Source: Syntrophaceae bacterium
GTDB lineage: Bacteria > Desulfobacterota > Syntrophia > Syntrophales > PHBD01
Length of the DNA stretch: 64,000 nucleotides
Reading direction: 5' to 3'
Assembly: GCA_013177825.1 (NCBI GenBank)
Contig: JABLXX010000002.1
Coordinates: 496,001-560,000 of the forward strand
Made by a program: the position numbers and the translations under genes. Position 1 is the first letter of the stretch, and every line of letters begins with the position of its first letter. The notes under the pieces are model-generated. The model did not search any database. It was not told the origin of the DNA and saw only the letters and a program-made list of their open reading frames with translations. This document shows positions 24,625 through 36,144 of the stretch, piece after piece.

Positions 24625-25323
24625 ATGTGTCAGCAATCGTTCTTCTATGGTGTCAAAGCGTGCGTCTTCGATGCCTACGGAACCCTGTTCGATTTCAACT
24701 CCGCCGCCGGCAGGCATCGCGAACGCCTCGGCGGCGCTGCCGATCGGGTGTCCGCCCTCTGGAGGACCAAGCAGCTTGAGTACACGTGGCTGCGCAGCCT
24801 GATGGGCAGCCACGCGGATTTCTGGCAGGTCACGCAGGACGCCCTGGATTACGCCCTCGACGCCTGCGGCATTGCCGACCGGGCCTTGAGGGATGCAATC
24901 GTCAATACGTACCTCGAACTGGACTGTTACCCCGACGTCAAGGGGACCCTGAAAGCACTGAAAGACGGGGGATGGAAGCTTGTCATCCTGTCCAACGGGA
25001 CGCCGGACATGCTGTCGGCGGCCGTGAAGAGCAGCGGGCTCACGGATCTCGTCGACTGCCTTCTCTCCGTTGAAGAGGTCGGCATCTACAAGCCAGATCC
25101 GCGGGTCTACGGGCTTGCCGTGGATAGGCTGAGCCTCAAGGCAAGGCAGATCGTTTTCCTCTCTGCAAATTCATGGGATGCGGTGGGGGCGGTGAACGCA
25201 GGCCTGCGGGTGGCCTGGGTCAACCGGTTCGGCCAGCAAAGGGAGCGCCTGCCGTCCCAGCCGGACGTGGAGATCAGTTCCCTTGCCTATCTGCTGCCGC
25301 TGTTGGGGTGCGAGGAAAAATAA
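24625..25323 (+). CDS. Haloacid dehalogenase, type II (HAD family)
   Basis: A 232-residue HAD hydrolase. The nucleophile motif is VFDAYGTLFDFNSA (Asp at residue 15), characteristic of L-2-haloacid dehalogenases because the second Asp of phosphatases is replaced by Tyr. LSNGTPDMLSAAV supplies motif II, and KPDPRVYGLAVDRL and SANSWDAVGAVNAGL supply motifs III and IV of this subgroup. It would hydrolyse short 2-haloacids in the cytoplasm; relaxed substrate is possible. AAAGGAGG precedes the ATG. Confidence 0.88.
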   Translation: MCQQSFFYGVKACVFDAYGTLFDFNSAAGRHRERLGGAADRVSALWRTKQLEYTWLRSLMGSHADFWQVTQDALDYALDACGIADRALRDAIVNTYLELDCYPDVKGTLKALKDGGWKLVILSNGTPDMLSAAVKSSGLTDLVDCLLSVEEVGIYKPDPRVYGLAVDRLSLKARQIVFLSANSWDAVGAVNAGLRVAWVNRFGQQRERLPSQPDVEISSLAYLLPLLGCEEK

Positions 25324-25439
25324 AAAACAGGTCGGGTTTATTTCCCCCGCACCACCTGCGGCCGGCCGGCCCTCCGGGAGAGTCCGTGCCTTGTCATGGG
25401 ATCGCTATGCACGCCCCGTGACGTCCGGGGGTACGCGTA

Positions 25440-25560
25440 GTGGGGAGACGGCATCGAGCCCGGAGACGTGCTCCTCGTTCCCGACCAGGGCGCCTACACG
25501 TACAGCCTGCGCCCGCATTTCATCAAGGCGGCGCCGGCGATGGTTTATCTAAGAGCAAAA
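25440..25560 (+). pseudogene. Remnant of a PLP-dependent decarboxylase C-terminus
   Basis: After a stop codon the frame reads WGDGIEPGDVLLVPDQGAYT and then YSLRPHFIKAAPAM. A GD-x7-GAYT segment near the end is the usual close of fold-type III decarboxylases (ornithine or diaminopimelate decarboxylase type). No start, ribosome site or N-terminal domain precedes it, so it is a fragment. The family call rests on this short motif only. Confidence 0.35.
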
Positions 25561-25687
25561 GGGGACGGATTTGAAATACACTCTTTTTTGCCAAGGCAGC
25601 GAAGAAGGGGCCGAATCCGGTCCGGTCCCGACGGCAAATCCTGAGCGGATTCCGGAACACTCTCAGCCAGGAGAGGTTTACTTTCAT

Positions 25688-25721
25688 AAAAAAATCCGCC
25701 CCAACAAGATGCTGAGGCGGT
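25688..25721 (-). terminator. Intrinsic terminator of the 22-mer repeat protein gene
   Basis: Read on the minus strand, CCGCCTCA, a 10-base loop and TGGGGCGG (one G-T pair) are followed by a T-run of seven. It lies 48 bases past the stop codon of the repeat protein gene. Confidence 0.75.
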
Positions 25722-25768
25722 CGTAAAGAGTAAATCAAGCGATATTAAATACTTGAGCACATTTCACT

Positions 25769-26575
25769 CTATTTCTTGAATGGCTCCTTTACAACGATTT
25801 TTACACCGCCAATGGTCCCCATTACTGCATTTCGAATGGCAGCGCCTGTTTCGCCACCAATGGCTTCCGCTGCCTCAATGGCGCCCGTTGCTGCTGCTGA
25901 TGCAGCTTTCTCTGATGACAATCCAATCTCTTTCGCTGCTTCCAAGGTGCCCAAGACTGCATTCTTGGCAACGGCGACTACATCTCCCCCTACTTCTGAT
26001 GCCCCCAGCACCAGCCCTTTAGAGGTGTCTTTTATGACCGTTGTCAGCTGGCTGCTGGCTTCCGCTACACCGCCGATAGCACCCTTGATGGCGCTTCTGG
26101 TCGCCAGACCCGCATCTCCACCCACTTCGGAAATCGCACGGATAACACCCCGCGCTGCTTCTGATGCAGCTTCTTCCGCTGATATGGCAATATCCCTCGT
26201 TCCGCTGATTGCTCCAACGATAGCGCTCTTGGCGACAGACGTAATGTCCCCACCTATCTCTGCGGTCCCTGTTACCGCTCCATGAGCAGTGTTGCGAATG
26301 ACATCAATGGTAACAGAACCTATCTCATGAACTCCCTTGAGTATGCCGATGATAGAATTCTTGGTAACGGTTGTCAGATCCGCTCCAATTTCTCCCGCTG
26401 CCTTAATTGCTCCGGTGACAATAGAGGCAACTGCAACTTCAATGTCTTTAACCCCCTCCAGCGTTTTTACCGTAGTGGCGCTCACGACATCGATAATTCC
26501 CATTGCCACATCTCGGGTGCCTTTAAAAACCCCTGCGAGCGCACTTCTGATTGTCTCTCCGATATTCTTTTCCAT
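25769..26575 (-). CDS. 22-residue tandem-repeat helical protein
   Basis: A 268-residue protein without signal peptide or Cys. Residues 22-259 are about eleven tandem units, all but one exactly 22 residues long (residues 44-61 form an 18-residue unit). Units begin with E-[IV]-G-G-D or a related start and end with a hydrophobic run and Gly/Ala (EIGGDITSVAKSAIVGAI, EVGGDVVAVAKNAVLGTL). Stronger and weaker copies partly alternate, suggesting a 44-residue superunit. The 22-mer (2 x 11) periodicity is that of apolipoproteins, synucleins and LEA proteins, which form amphipathic helices on membranes. GGAGGTG precedes the ATG, and a terminator follows the gene. Its function is not known; water-stress or membrane-surface protection is an inference. 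Confidence 0.75.
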   Translation of the reverse strand: MEKNIGETIRSALAGVFKGTRDVAMGIIDVVSATTVKTLEGVKDIEVAVASIVTGAIKAAGEIGADLTTVTKNSIIGILKGVHEIGSVTIDVIRNTAHGAVTGTAEIGGDITSVAKSAIVGAISGTRDIAISAEEAASEAARGVIRAISEVGGDAGLATRSAIKGAIGGVAEASSQLTTVIKDTSKGLVLGASEVGGDVVAVAKNAVLGTLEAAKEIGLSSEKAASAAATGAIEAAEAIGGETGAAIRNAVMGTIGGVKIVVKEPFKK

Positions 26576-27414
26576 GATAACACCTCCAATTCTTCATTCT
26601 TGTCAACGCATCACCGAAAACGCAATGAAGCGTGAAGACCTGTCATCTGTATCGCCGTTGCCGTCCATGCCCTTGTTGCAATCACCCTAAAAAAAAACCT
26701 GTTGCAGAAGATCCTATCTACCCATTTTTATTATCTTGAAGTGTCACACCGGTCAAAACTCTCTCTTCATATCGATAAGATTATAATCAGCAATCAGTTG
26801 AATATGTCCTACGAACATTTAAACATCTGTTGATTGCTATAAAAAACAACCATCCATTTAAACATGGATACAGTTTCCTTCCAATTATTGTATGTAGGAT
26901 TCGTTGTATTGCCCTTGGACCTGTAGCGAATACTAAACTTCTGATAGGCTGGAGAATATATCAGGGAAGCGGATGGTACATGAGAAAATCAACTACATCA
27001 AACTTCAGAAAATATTTTTGTTGCTTAGAGGCTGGAAATTGGTGAATTTCAAAAAACCTCTACCCTGAAGACATCCGGAAAGTTAAAAGGTGAGGTTGAA
27101 TTGGGGGATCACTCTGACTTATTTTTCTAAAATATCTCACAAGATGGATCGATTGTCAATGGCATTTTCTCTTGTATGAATGGTCTCACAGGAAAGCAGA
27201 ACAAATTTTTCTTTGGATCTTGATTGGCTGTCATCTGATAATAACACTGGTAAGTCACCCATCAAGCGGATAGACTATATATAAAGATAAAAAGTGACAT
27301 GTGCCCACTTTACACCAGTACACCCGTGATCAACGAGGAGCGGGAGTCCAGGACGCTGCCACATTCACAGTCTGGTTGATCTGAACGTAACCTCACAACA
27401 AGGAGATATTCAAC
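26576..27414. other. AT-rich non-coding region upstream of the glucan synthase
   Basis: About 840 bases, much poorer in GC than the rest of the window, between the divergent repeat-protein and glucan-synthase genes. A 71-codon frame at 26830 has no ribosome site and a non-protein-like sequence. Several TATAAT-like words occur, but no well-spaced -35 partner could be chosen. The region probably carries complex regulation for both genes or is horizontally acquired DNA. Confidence 0.45.
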
Positions 27415-30400
27415 TTGGCGTCCCTCAGCAGGACCATTATCGGAAGTCTGCGCCTGTCAAGGCCCCCCCTCCACACAAAAGGTCCGCCGCATACGCGCGT
27501 CGGGGATGAGCCGCCCCTCAGATCGGAGCTATTCAGTACCGTTCAGATGGAGCAACACGGCAAGACCCTTGCCGCAGCACACGCGCTGGGCACAGGCCAT
27601 ACCCCCGAGCAATTGCTGACGCGTCTCGATGAGAATGAAGGCATCCTCCATGAAGTTCGAGACCTGCTCACAGAGGCCGTGAAAGGAAACAGGAGGATTA
27701 CACCGGCAGGAGAATGGCTCCTCGACAATTTCTACCTGATCGAAGAACAGATTCGCACGGCCAGGAGACACCTTCCCAAGGGCTACAGTAAGGGACTGCC
27801 CCGCTTGAAAAAGGGTCCGTCAAGGGGGTTCCCCCGTGTATATGACATTGCCCTGGAGACGATCTCTCATGGCGATGGTCGGGTGGATCCTGAGAGCCTC
27901 AGCAGTTTCGTGACCGCATATCAGACGGTCACCATGTTGGAGTTGGGTGAGTTATGGGCCATCCCCATCATGCTCCGCCTGGCGCTGATCGAGAACCTCC
28001 GGCGCGTGGCAACGAGGATTGCCGCCCGCAGGACCGATCGGAACCATGCCGATTACTGGGCCGACCGGATCACCGAGACCGCCCTGAGAAACCCGAAGAA
28101 CCTGATCCTGGTCATTGCCGACATGGCACGTTCAAAGCCTCCCATGGTCAGTTCCTTCGTGGCGGAGCTTGCACGCCGTCTGCAGGGTCAGGGGCCCGCT
28201 CTTGCATTGCCCCTCACGTGGATTGAGCAGCAACTCTCCGAGTCAAGTCTGACGATTGAACAGTTGGTACAGTCGGAGAATCAGCAGCAAGCGGCAGATC
28301 AGCTTTCCATCAGTAACAGCATCGGCAGCCTCCGCTTCCTGGGCGCCATGGACTGGCGCAAATTCGTCGAAACGATGAGCAAGGTCGAGCAGACCCTCCG
28401 CGAGGACCCTGCCGGTGTGTACGCGAGAATGGATTTCGCCACTCGCGATCAATACCGTCACGTTGTGGAGAAGATCACGAAGAGCAGCCTGCTGTCCGAA
28501 ATCGAGGTGGCGCGCGCCGCGATCCACCTTGCCGGAAAGGGTAAGGGTACGGCCGGCGGCGGCGATCGGGAGAATCATGTCGGCTTTTACCTGATGGACA
28601 AGGGATTGGCTCTGCTTGAAGTGCATGCAGGGGTGCGTCTGTCTCCCACTGACACGATTCGAAGGGTCGTTCACCGATTTCCCCTGTCCTGCTATCTGGG
28701 CACGATCAGTGTACTCACGGCGATATTCACCGGATGTTTGCTTGCAGAGGCCCACTCCGGCGGGTTACGCGGCCCCTGGGTATGGCTGATCGGCATCGTC
28801 TCCCTGCTCGGTGTCAGCCAGCTGGCGACAGCCATGGTGAACTGGCTTGCGACACGCGTTGTGGCACCTCGTCCGCTTCCCCGAATGGATTTCTCCAAAG
28901 GGATTCCTCCCGAATCGTCTGCCCTTGTCGTGGTTCCCACCATGATCACAAGTGCCGGAAACATCGAGCACCTGCTGGAGGCACTGGAGGTCCGGTACCT
29001 GGCAAACAGCGACGAGAACCTGCGTTTTGTCCTGCTCACCGATTTTCGGGATGCGGGCCATGAATCACTGCCTGATGATCAGCCGCTCCTGTTGCTGGCC
29101 CGGCAGGGAATCGAGGGGCTGAACGAAAAATACAGAACTTCAGAAAGCGACACCTTTTTCCTTTTCCATCGTCCACGCCGCTTCAATCCCCAGGACCATA
29201 TCTGGATGGGTTACGAACGCAAGCGGGGGAAGCTTGCGGAGCTGAATTCCTTTCTGCGTGGCGGCTCGAGAGAGTGCTTTTCGCTCATCGTCGGCGATAC
29301 GGAAGGACTGGAAAAGGTTAAATATATCATCACCCTCGACACGGATACACAACTCCCCCGTGATACAGCGCGGCAGCTCGTGGGGGCCATGGCACACCCG
29401 CTGAACCGTCCGCAATACGATGAAGACAGGCAACGTATGTGTGCCGGATACGGCATCCTTCAGCCGCGCGTGGCCGTCAGCCTGCCCGGGGCGAACCGTT
29501 CCCGGTATGCCCGCATGTGGGGAAGTGATGCAGGCATCGATCCCTATACCCGCGTCGTCTCCGATGTGTACCAGGACCTCTTCGGAGAAGGATCCTTCAT
29601 CGGCAAGGGCATCTATGAGGTGGATGCGTTCGAACAGGCTCTCCGGGGACGTTTTCCCGAAAACCGGATTTTGAGCCACGATCTGATCGAAGGGTGCCAT
29701 GCGCGGGCAGGCCTTCTGAGTGATGTTCAGCTTTATGAGGAATACCCCTCTCGCTACGACGCTGACGTGAGTCGCAGGCACCGCTGGATTCGCGGGGACT
29801 GGCAGCTCCTCCGCTGGATCCTGCCGGGTGTCCCCGGCCCGAATGCACGTTTTCAGAAGAATCCTCTCTCCCTGCTTTCCAGGTGGAAGATTTTCGACAA
29901 CCTCCGGCGGAGCATTTCGCCTCTGGCGCTGACGCTCCTGCTTCTTGCAGGCTGGACCGTCTTGCCCATGCCCTGGCTGTGGACCCTGTCGGTGCTGGGC
30001 ATCATCGTGATCCCTTCCCTGATGAACACTCTGGTGGATCTCCTTCAGAAGCCGGGCGATGTCCTTCCCGGTCAGCACCTGCTCGCCGCTATGCGCGGGA
30101 GCGCCAGGAACATGGGCCAGGCTGCATTTAATCTTATTTGTCTGCCTTATGAAGCTTTGTTCAGTATGGACGCTGTTGTACGCACCATCTGGCGTCTGCT
30201 GGTTGCGAAGAAGCGGCTTCTCGAATGGAACCCTTCGGGCGACTCCGATCGCAAGAGCCGGAAAGGCCTTGCTGCCTCTTTCCGGACGATGTGGATCTGC
30301 CCGGCCATTGCCGTTGCCGTGACGATCGATCTCGCCATGACAAGGCCGGAGGCCCTGGTTGTCGCCTTGCCCGTGCTTTGCCTCTGGTTTGTGGCTCCCG

Positions 30401-33400
30401 GGGTTGTGTGGCTGATGAGTGAGCCGCTCAAGCGCCGGGAAGCAGAGCTCACCGCCGACCAGATCATCTTTCTGAGAAAGATCTCCAGAAAGACGTGGCA
30501 TTTCTTTGAAACGTTCGTCGGCCCGGCTGATCATTGGCTTCCCCCCGATAACTACCAGGAACAGCCGCTGGCCAAGATTGCCCATCGCACGTCACCGACC
30601 AACATGGGGCTGGCCCTCCTTGCCAACTTATCCGCCTGGGATTTCGGCTATCTTTCCGCAGGGGAGCTCATCGAACGCACGTTGGATACACTCCGCACAA
30701 TGGCATCGATGGAGCGCCACAAAGGGCACTTCTATAACTGGTATGACACGGAATCCCTGAAGCCGCTGCTGCCCATGTATGTCTCGACGGTGGACAGCGG
30801 AAATCTCGCAGCCCATTTGTTAACGCTGCGGGCCGGGCTCACGGAACTCCCCAATGAGAAGATCATGGGGGCAAAGGTATTCGACGGGCTCCTCGATACG
30901 CTGAACGTTCTCATGGACGTCGCCGGGGACCCCATTCCGGCCCGGCTTGTTCAGATAAGGGATGATTTGGCATCTTCGTGCATCTCCCCGCCGGATACGT
31001 GCCAGGCAGCATGGGAGAGGCTCTCTGACGTCACCGCGTCTGCCCTGGACGTGGCACATGAATTTGACGCCGATCCTGCTGAGAGCCAGGCTGCATGGTG
31101 GATGAGGGCCTTTGCCGGCCAATGCCGGGCGGCCCTCGATGAATTGACTTTTCTCGCGCCATGGACCGCCCTTTTGCTTCCTTCCCGGGTGCTCGCCGAC
31201 ATTCCTGGCCTCGGCGATATTCCGACACTGCGCAGACTGGCCGATTTTGACAAGACGTTACTGCCGGGAGTGGCAGACCTGCACGCCAAGGTGCCGGATG
31301 AGCGGGAGCAGTTTGATAAGCTTTCGAGAGCCATCGAGGAGGCCGGCACCCGGGCCGGAGCGAGAATCGCCGTCATCGACGACCTGGCATCACAATGCGA
31401 TGCGCTTGCCCTCATTGATTATGACTTCCTCTATGACGAGACTCGCCATCTTCTGGCCATCGGTTACAACATCAGTGAAAACCGGCGGGACGAGAGTTAC
31501 TATGATTTACTGGCATCGGAAGCGAGACTCTCCTGTTTTGTCGCCATTGCCCAGGGAAAATTGCCGCAGGAAAGCTGGTTTGCCTTGGGACGGCTCCTGA
31601 CAACGGCCGCGGGAGAGCCGATTCTCCTTTCCTGGAACGGCTCCATGTTCGAATATCTCATGCCCCTCCTCGTCATGCCCGCCTATGAAGAGACACTCCT
31701 CGACGAGACCTGCAAGGCGGCTGTCGCAAGGCAAATCGAGTATGGGAAAAAGCGGGGGGTACCCTGGGGTGTTTCGGAATCCGGCCACAACACGATCGAC
31801 GGTCATCTCAATTACCAGTATGGCCCTTTTGGCGTGCCCGGCCTGGGGCTCAAACGCGGTCTTGCCGGAGATCTGGTCGTTGCTCCCTATGCCACGGCGC
31901 TGGCGCTCATGGTGGCGCCGGAAAAGGCCTGCCTCAATCTCGAGACACTCGCCGCACGGGGGCTCGAGGGGCAGTACGGTTTCTATGAAGCGATTGATTA
32001 CACCCCGACACATCTTCCCAGGGGAGAATCGAGCGCGGTGGTTCGGTCCTTCATGGCCCATCATCAGGGCATGAGTCTCCTGTCGCTGGCTTCCTTGCTC
32101 CAGAACCGCCCCATGCAGCGACGCTTCGAGTCGGACCCCTCGTTTCAGGCCGCTATGCTGTTGCTTCAGGAGCGGGTTCCCAAGGCCACGGCGTTCTACT
32201 CGCACACGACCGAGCTTGCCGAAGTGCAGACAGCCTCACATGATGCAGAAGAGATGCCGGTCCGCGTCTACAAGAGTCCCGACACATCGATACCGGAAGT
32301 GCAGTTGCTGTCGAACGGCAGATATCACGTGATGATCACAAACGCGGGCGGTGGGTACAGCCGCTGGAAAGACCTGGCGATAACGCGATGGCGCGAAGAC
32401 AGCACCCGCGATAACTGGGGCGCCTTCTGCTATATCCAAGACCTCGCAACCGGAGTTTTCTGGTCAACGACCTTCCAACCCGTGCTCAAGGTCTCGCGGC
32501 AGTACGAGGCCGTATTCTCGGAAGGACGGGCGGAGTTTCGTCGTCTGGATCAGGACTTCCACACCCATACGGAAATTGCGGTTTCGCCGGAGGATGACAT
32601 CGAGTTGCGCCGGATGACCATCACGAACCGGGCAAGGACAAGCAGAACGATCGAAGTGACAAGCTATGCGGAAGTCGTCCTGGCATCATCCGCTCAGGAC
32701 GCGCTGCACCCGGCCTTCAGCAATCTCTTTGTTCAGACCGAGATCATTCGCGAACAGACGGCCATCCTCTGCACGCGCCGGCCCCGCTCCCTGGAGGAAC
32801 AGTCGCCATGGATGTTCCATCTCATGGCGGTGCACGGGGCCGAAACAGGGGAAGTCTCTTATGAAACGGACCGCATGCGGTTTATCGGTCGCGGAAACAC
32901 CGTTGCCGATCCGGAAGCGATGAGACGTTCCGCAGGACTCTCGGATAGCGAGGGTTCCGTGCTCGATCCGATTGTCGCAATCCGATATCCAATAACCCTC
33001 GATCCGCAAGAATCGGCAACCATCATCATCGTCACCGGGATCGCCGAAACACGAAATACCTGCATGGACCTTGTCGGGAAATACCAGGACCGGCATCTTG
33101 CCGATCGTGTCTTCAATCTGGCGTGGACCCATAGCCAGGTGTTGTTGCGGCAGATCAATGCCACGGAAGCCGACGCGCAGCTTTATGGACGTCTGGCCGC
33201 GTCTGTCCTGTACGCAAATTCGTCGCTGCGTGCCGGACCGGACATCCTCATGAAAAATCGTCGCGGCCAATCCGGCCTCTGGGGCTATTCAATTTCCGGC
33301 GATCTTCCCCTCGTGCTTCTGCAGATCGAAGATTCCGCCAACATCAACCTTGTACGACAGCTTGTTCAGGCCCACGCCTACTGGCGTCTTAAAGGACTGG

Positions 33401-36144
33401 CGGTGGACCTGGTCATCTGGAACGAAGATCAGGCGGGTTACCGGCAACTCCTTCATGAGCAGATCATGCGGCTCGTCGCCGTCGGTACGGAAGTCAACGC
33501 GACCGATCGACCGGGTGGAATATTCGTGAGACCTTCCAGCCAGATATCAAAAGAGGATCGCCTCCTGTTCCAGGCAGTTTCCCGCATCATTATCAATGAT
33601 CGCAGGGGAACGCTCTTGGATCACTTAAAGCAGACGAGCCTTACGGAAGGCATGTTGCCGGCCTCCATGCCGCCTCGAACCACACGGGGCGAGGCCCCGG
33701 CAATAGCGGCAAAGGTTCGCGAGGACCTGATGTTCGGGAACGGGCTGGGAGGGTTCACGCCTGACGGCCGGGAGTATATCATCTCAACTGCCCGCGGACA
33801 GGTGACGCCGGCACCATGGGTGAATGTGCTGGCGAACCGGCATTTCGGAACCGTCGTCTCGGAAAACGGTCTTGGATATACCTGGAGAGAAAACGCCCAC
33901 GAGTTCCGCCTCACTCCCTGGGACAACGATCCGGTCAGCGATTCGAGCGGCGAAGCCTTTTATGTTCGCGATGAAGACCGCGGCCATTTCTGGTCCCCCA
34001 TGCCGCTGCCCAGCCGCGGAGCCACACCGTACGTCACCCGTCACGGATTCGGCTACAGCGTCTTCGAGCACACGGAGCGGGGTATCAGCACGGAGGTTTG
34101 GGTATATGTGGCCCTGGATGCGCCGGTCAAGTTCACGGTGTTGAAGGTGCGCAACCACTCAGGCCGGTCGCGGCGCCTTTCCGCCACCGGTTATGTGGAA
34201 TGGGTGCTGGGAGATTTGAGGCCCAAATCAGCCATGCACGTTATAACCGAGATCAACCATCAAAGCGGTGCCCTCTTTGCACGGAACCCTTACCATACTG
34301 AATTCGGGAACCGGGCGGCGTTTTTCAACGTGGACGATGCAGCTCGGACCGTGAGCGGAGACCGGACCGAATTTATAGGGCGTAACGGAACACTCGCTCA
34401 TCCGGCTGCCATGGGGCGGTCACGGCTTTCCGGCCGGGTGGGGGCCGCTCTGGATCCCTGCAGTGCGATCCAGGTGGCCTTTGAGTTGGCGGACGGGGAA
34501 GAGCGAGAGATCGTATTCACGTTAGGCGCGGGCCAGGATGCCGATGATGCCGAGAACCTGGCACAGCGCTTCCGGGGATCGGCTGCTGCACGCGTTGCCC
34601 TTGAGGCAGTCTGGCAGTACTGGAACCGAACCCTCGGTGTCGTGCAGGTGGAAACACCCGACCCATCCTTCAACGTTCTGGCCAACGGCTGGCTCTTGTA
34701 CCAGACCCTGGCCTGCCGTCTTTGGGGGCGAAGCGGTTACTACCAGTCAGGAGGCGCCTTTGGCTTCCGCGACCAGTTGCAGGACGGGATGGCCCTCACC
34801 CATGCAGAGCCAAACCTCGTACGGGAGCACCTCCTCCTCAGTGCATCCCGACAGTTTTCTGAGGGGGATGTCCAACACTGGTGGCATCCGCCCTCGGGCC
34901 GGGGCGTGCGCACCCATTGCTCGGATGATTTTCTCTGGCTGCCTCTGGCGACGTGCCGCTACGTTTTAACCACCGGAGATACCGGCGTGCTGGATGAACC
35001 CGTCGGCTACATCAAGGGACGCCTGGTCAATGCGGAGGAGGACTCCTATTACGATCTGCCGGGCAGATCTGAAGAAAAGGCCAGTCTCTACGATCACTGT
35101 GTCCGGGCTATCGAGATGGGCTTCAGGTTTGGCGACCATGGCCTGCCGCTCATCGGTTCCGGTGACTGGAATGACGGCATGAACATGTTGGGCAAAGGCG
35201 GCAAAGGCGAAAGTGTCTGGCTCGCATTCTTCCTCTATGACGTACTCAAGCGGTTTATGGAAGTTGCGCGCCTGCGCGGAGACTCGCCATTCGCCGAACG
35301 TTGCGAGAGCGAAGCGGAAAAGCTTAGCCGGAACATCGAGAAGCATGGCTGGGATGGCGAGTGGTACCTCCGGGCTTTCTTCGATGACGGCACGCCCCTC
35401 GGATCAGCGGGTAATCCCGAATGCCGGATTGATTCCATTGCTCAGAGCTGGTCCGTCCTGTCCGGGGCAGGGAGTGCCGCGCGCTCTCAAATGGCAATGG
35501 ATGCAGTGGATAAACACCTTGTGCGCAGGGACCACGCGTTGATCCAGCTTCTTGACCCGCCCTTCGACAAGTCGGATTTGAATCCCGGTTATATCAAGGG
35601 GTACGTTCCCGGTGTCCGGGAGAATGGCGGGCAGTACACCCACGGGGCCATCTGGGCCGCCATGGCCTTCGCTGCCATGGGTGACAGCAGGCGGGCATGG
35701 GAGCTCCTTGCCATGATCAACCCTGTGAATCATGGGGGATCCGCTGACGGGATCGGAACCTACAAAGTGGAGCCATACGTTGTCGCGGCAGACGTCTACG
35801 CAGTTCCACCCCATACGGGTCGAGGCGGATGGACGTGGTACACGGGAGCAGCCGGATGGATGTACCGGCTGATGGCGGAATCACTCCTGGGGCTCAGACT
35901 TGAAGTGGACAAACTGCATGTCGAGCCCTGTCTCCCCGCAGAGTGGGAGGGCTTCGTCGTGCATTATCGGTATCGGGAGACCACCTATCACATAAATGTC
36001 ATTCAGAGAAAAACAGGCGAAGATGGAGGGCGCGTGACCGTTGACGGGATCGTGCAGCGGGCGCAGACGATTCCCCTGACGGACGATCATGTCGAACATT
36101 TCGTGGAATTAGTCGTGGCGCCAGTTCGTCTCAGTCCCGTGTAA
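27415..36144 (+). CDS. ndvB: Cyclic beta-1,2-glucan synthase (NdvB/Cgs family)
   Basis: A giant 2909-residue inner-membrane enzyme that builds, elongates and cyclises beta-1,2-glucan from UDP-glucose for the periplasm. Membrane helices near residues 425-482 precede the GT84 domain, with TLDTDTQLP (about 641) and the processivity motif HRWIRGDWQ (about 788). More membrane helices lie at about 833-880 and 958-1005, then a glucoamylase-like region. The C-terminal GH94 phosphorylase domain has SGDWNDGMN (catalytic Asp near 2583) that sets chain length. Size matches Agrobacterium and Brucella proteins (about 2830-2870). The start is TTG with AAGGAGA eight bases upstream. Confidence 0.93.

Follow-up and report, generated by a model that had tools for sequence, protein, structure and literature searches.

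What kind of protein is built from a run of 22-residue helical units, and what might it do in the bacterium that carries it? The question is raised by a gene at positions 25769 to 26575, minus strand, of the window, by which we mean the 64,000-nucleotide stretch of Syntrophaceae bacterium DNA analyzed here. The product, 268 amino acids long, comprises twelve 22-residue helix-turn units with one step of 18, as judged from the open reading frame, self-comparison, a unit profile, and purifying selection. Read directly from the sequence, the start codon is ATG, and a ribosome-binding site, GGAGG, lies 7 bases 5' of it (26583 to 26587, minus strand). An intrinsic terminator-like site with an 11-bp stem, 7 GC pairs, and a T-run, located 49 bases past the stop codon (25696 to 25720, minus strand), suggests a single-gene transcript, although the consensus scan that located it also reports an average of 2.4 such sites per region when the sequence is shuffled. 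An AT-rich region (26576 to 27414) separates the gene from its divergent neighbor on the plus strand, which encodes a cyclic beta-glucan synthase of the NdvB/GH94 type, recognized by its Pfam GH94 domains (27415 to 36144). The AT-rich stretch ahead of the glucan synthase gene, pointed out in a first-pass annotation of this DNA, is indeed present, with a GC content of 0.37 to 0.44 at 26400 to 27200. Three orthologues of the window protein occur in other families of the order, two of them full length and gapless and the third interrupted by a contig end. Because these orthologues are 77 to 81% identical to the window protein, with dN/dS values of 0.10 to 0.19 between the genes, we conclude that the gene is real and under purifying selection.

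Self-comparison of the window protein gave peaks at lags of 22 (z 9.8), 44 (z 10.2), 66 (z 7.0), and 88 (z 11.7) and a weak one at 11 (z 2.0), all scored against 1000 shuffles. The best internal similarity joins segments 88 residues, or four units, apart, with 39 of 88 positions identical. A unit profile, trained on the units of the window protein from residue 44 onward, identified twelve units starting at residues 4, 26, 44, 66, 88, 110, 132, 154, 176, 198, 220, and 242, with steps of 22, 18, and then 22 nine times. In a 12-unit homologue that was kept out of the training (locus L049), all 11 steps are exactly 22, and a 4-residue deletion is therefore the best explanation of the 18-residue step. 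A typical unit reads D-[IV]-x-x-V-A-K-[NS]-A-[IV]-x-G-[AT]-[IV]-x-[GA]-[AV]-x-E-[IV]-G-G, and Gly-Gly C-caps and Asp/Ser N-caps mark the unit borders. The first-pass annotation had described 22-residue units with a single one of 18. This description was borne out by self-comparison and the unit profile, except that there are twelve units and that the short one is close to the N terminus instead of last. The step, on whose constancy that annotation had staked its claim, is 22 in all homologues tested and is blurred only in two weak second paralogues (L060_8 and L075_11).

The window protein represents a genuine, undescribed repeat family. Searches of the family against Pfam, NCBIfam, PHROG, PADLOC, and the PDB gave nothing above threshold: PADLOC had no match to the repeat protein, PHROGs gave weak tape-measure matches only (E 0.008), of the kind that long helices attract, and PDB sequence matches were at chance level (designed repeats, E 0.2; synuclein, E 1.1). 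The family is spread thinly through Desulfobacterota, with profile matches in 32 of 395 sampled genomes, all from this group, and the gene is patchy within the order of the window genome (5 of 155 genomes). There are three types, with 12 units (the window type, 268 to 274 amino acids), 7 units (165 to 169 amino acids), or 8 units (210 to 290 amino acids, with polar tails); unit length is constant at 22 in all three, and unit count varies. Since no relative was found in phages and plasmids by tblastn or in viral contigs scanned with the 8-unit profile, a mobile-element origin is unsupported. A genome of the same genus as the window genome, G001, is without the repeat gene, and its flanking HAD and glucan synthase genes are on different contigs. 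Homology of the window to G001 ends at about 25292 and resumes at 27228; the segment from 25293 to 27227, located between the window's HAD and glucan synthase genes, has no counterpart in G001 and is a site of rearrangement or insertion. Two peculiarities of individual family members were also seen. The repeat gene of G235 (L059, 6632 to 7340) is split over two frames with about 40 unmatched residues between them, through a frameshift or an assembly error, and two loci (L060, 7278 to 9038; L075, 6148 to 7887) encode two diverged repeat-protein paralogues side by side, followed by a P-type ATPase, the second copies being those with blurred periodicity.

In the window protein, Leu makes up 4% of residues, Ile plus Val 23%, and Gly 14%, and the (Ile+Val)/Leu ratio of 5.2 is higher than that of all 293 neighboring ORFs (mean, 1.2); the family mean is 4.4. 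Helical amphipathicity is moderate, with a mean hydrophobic moment of 0.29, a hydrophobic fraction of 0.46, an aromatic fraction of 0.007, and a charged fraction of 0.21. The corresponding values are 0.257, 0.35, 0.002, and 0.15 for perilipin-4 and 0.30, 0.47, 0.02, and 0.24 for alpha-synuclein (PMC5889406, Table 1). The window protein thus resembles the repeat regions of these two proteins in moment and charge and in being rich in Val, Thr, Gly, and Ala and poor in aromatics, whereas their units are of 33 or 11 residues and lack GG-D breaks. Our favored, though tentative, reading is that the protein works in the cytosol as a coat or scaffold of apolipoprotein-like type, on the surface of the inner membrane or of inclusions, and is encoded near membrane- and osmotic-stress genes.

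Along the whole length of the protein, hydrophobicity has a period of 3.66 residues, and the moment is 0.293 at 98.2 degrees versus 0.068 at 100 degrees. These values could be taken to indicate a single, continuous, turn-free 3-11 amphipathic helix on the membrane, in line with the geometry proposed in the first-pass annotation. However, any 22-residue helix repeat forces the 98.2-degree peak and the 3.66 period as a necessary harmonic, so neither is proof of such a helix, and the period was set aside as evidence for it. GG-D breaks at most unit ends, turns predicted there by AlphaFold2, and an 18-residue step that is not a multiple of 11 also argue against a continuous helix, which we consider improbable. 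The earlier proposal is upheld in that the 22-residue units do exist, are conserved, and are predicted to be helical.

In the AlphaFold2 prediction, each unit of the window protein has a single helix of 14 to 21 residues, twelve in all, and the chain turns where Gly-Gly meets Asp. The best model from three sequences had a pLDDT of 79.7 and a pTM of 0.81 and the best from one sequence a pLDDT of 76.8 and a pTM of 0.78, levels reached by two of the five models in the former case and by one of five in the latter, with the rest at pLDDT 37 to 56. Helix boundaries were nearly equal between the two over residues 45 to 239. The predicted fold superposed over its whole length on designed helical-repeat proteins (8cws_A, Z 24.1 over 267 residues at 2.9 Å; DHR4, Z 15.9), with which it shares no common descent. 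Natural solenoids scored a Z of about 7 or less, with no family standing out, and a viral structure library gave no convincing match. Designed helical-repeat proteins have Leu-rich cores.

These models raise the possibility of a soluble alpha-solenoid scaffold, in which the twelve helices would stack as a rigid rod that binds partner proteins (for the 8-unit type, ATPase or HMA_2 proteins). The agreement between the models and their superposition on the designed proteins favor it, as do the caps at the unit borders and the excess at lags 88 and 44, which suggests alternating helices. Moreover, the best models are folded (pLDDT 80, pTM 0.81) and do not form one open helix, which counts against the lipid-surface reading. 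On the other hand, the fold appeared in a minority of the models, AlphaFold2 overconfidence on repeats is documented for beta-solenoids (PMC11795689), the similarity to natural solenoids is low, and Leu-poor helices rich in Gly and beta-branched residues are unusual in soluble solenoids. We regard the solenoid scaffold as the main rival, close behind the lipid-surface reading, and as possible but somewhat doubtful.

We then asked how the protein compares with known families of amphipathic repeats, kinship with apolipoproteins, alpha-synuclein, and LEA proteins having been suggested in the first-pass annotation. Exchangeable apolipoproteins of the apoA-I type (PF01442) consist of tandem 22-residue amphipathic helices with helix breakers between them and are folded in solution and able to open on lipid. 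The window protein likewise has tandem 22-residue amphipathic helical units separated by breakers, and by analogy it might open on lipid. Unlike the apolipoproteins, with their Pro breakers, it has Gly-Gly-Asp breakers, few aromatics, and little Leu, and neither it nor the other members of two alignments matched the PF01442 profile at E values up to 10. The Synuclein profile (PF01387) gave a match in one relative only (E 0.36; 11.5 bits versus a cutoff of 23.3), and an 11-residue period, like that of synucleins, is weak in the window protein. A hydrophilic protectant of the LEA kind, one that vitrifies or folds upon desiccation, would agree with the regular 22-residue units and with the stress genes CsbD and BON near the repeat gene in G140. 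However, LEA profiles did not match at E values up to 10, and a protein with nearly half of its residues hydrophobic and almost a quarter Ile or Val is not hydrophilic; we judge this explanation very unlikely. A 391-residue helical protein rich in Glu, Lys, and Ala (L079, 5370 to 6545), which has a weak match to the family profile (E 4e-7), does have a LEA-like look. Of the suggested kinships, then, the LEA part lacks profile support, whereas composition and hydrophobic moment resemble those of alpha-synuclein and perilipin-4, and the apolipoprotein/synuclein analogy is a plausible hypothesis.

In the 8-unit type, sub-threshold Pfam matches cluster on lipid-surface families, some of them possibly reflecting Gly/Ala/Val composition. 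The Senescence profile (PF06911), which represents a domain of spartin and ERD7 for which we know of no perfect 22-residue repeat, matched 6 of 12 8-unit proteins below its gathering score, the best of them just short of it (22.5 bits, E 1.2e-4, versus 24.6). When whole genomes were searched with this profile, 9 of 10 matches were the repeat gene, including all of those in five 8-unit genomes; neither the window protein nor anything else in the window genome matched it. Lipid-droplet binding and lipid transfer are both activities of the senescence domain (PMC10705495, PMC8079945), for which AlphaFold2 does not give reliable models (PMC10705495). Phasin_2 (PF09361) had no match above its gathering score and sub-threshold matches in 7 of 12 8-unit proteins (best E, 0.028; best score among individually shown relatives, 14.7 bits versus a cutoff of 24.9), and the chlorosome envelope family CsmC had sub-threshold matches in 3 of 12 and Synuclein in 1. 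That no lipid-family profile exceeded its cutoff, and that the window protein lacks even a Senescence match, counts against the lipid-surface reading.

Gene neighborhoods differ between the types. Of 11 loci that carry the 12- or 7-unit type, 6 have a gene for a B12-binding radical SAM protein within 2.5 kb, and 3 have a cyclic glucan synthase on the same stretch (the window, G019, where it is near the repeat gene, and G140, where it is on the same contig). The divergent arrangement with the glucan synthase gene reported in the first-pass annotation thus holds for the window and G019, but most relatives have other neighbors. Further neighbors include genes for cyclopropane-fatty-acid (CFA) synthase, SPFH, DUF883, CsbD, BON, GH130/GH65, and PHA-synthase-like proteins. 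Membrane, osmotic, and storage functions recur, and a single recurrent partner is absent; this variation between genomes around the 12-unit type counts against the lipid-surface reading.

The storage-related neighbors bear on a more specific idea. A putative coat role would liken the family to the bacterial phasins and MLDS, which coat storage inclusions; the likeness to MLDS, a bacterial lipid-droplet protein linked to stress survival (PMC5504291), is by description only. A phasin-like coat of polyhydroxyalkanoate granules would fit the PHA synthases in the window genome, the below-threshold Phasin_2 matches, and the G066 locus (L012), where genes for two similar small proteins flank the repeat gene, with a PHA-synthase-like gene alongside. 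Yet among 11 carriers of the 12- and 7-unit types, the PHA synthase family was matched in only 4, with none detected in G019, G484, G163, G235, G140, G206, or G427, and PHA synthase is present in 91 of 154 genomes of the order compared with 5 of 155 for the repeat gene. A role on PHA granules is accordingly improbable, and both this explanation and the LEA one are weaker than the coat and solenoid readings. WS/DGAT triacylglycerol synthase was uninformative, with no signal in the 11 carriers or in any control genome. The small proteins at L012 (9227 to 9580 and 10624 to 11064; 117 and about 144 amino acids), the first of which has no Pfam or NCBIfam match, are possibly new phasin or PhaE-like proteins.

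The 8-unit type, in contrast, is found in an operon whose gene order is the same at all 23 loci: DUF5132, usually HMA_2, the repeat protein, a calcium-pump-like P-type ATPase, and S-adenosylmethionine synthetase (MetK). DUF5132 is upstream of the repeat gene and the P-type cation ATPase gene adjoins or overlaps it on the same strand in every locus; a separate HMA_2 protein was detected in 19 loci, and MetK is present in 21, the other two being cut off or incomplete there. The operon is exemplified by L054 (1063 to 9368), with 22 similar loci (L007, L051, L053, L055 to L058, L060 to L062, and L065 to L076). Its ATPase, a calcium-type P-type ATPase fused to HMA_2, had its highest scores, though under the cutoffs, against calcium-pump (P2A) models. 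A ferrosome (fez) interpretation of the operon was dropped, since P2A models and not P1B types fit the ATPase best; the fez literature found names FezA and FezB only. No literature was found on DUF5132 or on an ATPase-MetK cluster. The alphaproteobacterial Microvirga plasmid pMVF16-1 (L080, 1788 to 8594) carries two DUF5132 genes, a P-type ATPase, and HMA_2 without the repeat protein or MetK, and the repeat protein therefore looks like an added partner.

Taken together, composition, neighbors, and the sub-threshold lipid-family matches favor a lipid-surface role over any other single reading. In such a coat, each 22-residue unit would fold as a single amphipathic helix, some 18 residues long, between its predicted N-cap and C-cap. 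In solution, the helices probably pack on one another; on the inner membrane, or on an inclusion or granule, their Val/Ile/Ala faces would rest on lipid, and each helix could use its basic edge and the acidic edge opposite to pair with its neighbors and so build the coat. The coat might then stabilize the membrane under osmotic or envelope stress, and the 8-unit relatives may play the same role as dedicated partners of the calcium-pump-like ATPase. A bolder proposal, which we consider a long shot, would make the family a bacterial repeat protein that works on lipid surfaces and in lipid transfer, akin by descent or by analogy to the spartin/ERD7 senescence domain of eukaryotes, with the 8-unit form a dedicated coat or regulator of the calcium-type P-type ATPase module (DUF5132, HMA_2, and MetK), perhaps on a membrane compartment.

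Coat proteins made of amphipathic-helix repeats are well known in eukaryotes, and few have been described in bacteria. The family described here is a strictly modular version, with 7, 8, or 12 units of one length, and one branch of it is tied to an unstudied P-type ATPase operon of invariant gene order. Should the family coat membranes, it would serve as a prokaryotic model of the way in which lipid affinity depends on the number of helices; should it prove to be a true solenoid, the designed helical-repeat proteins would have an equivalent in nature.
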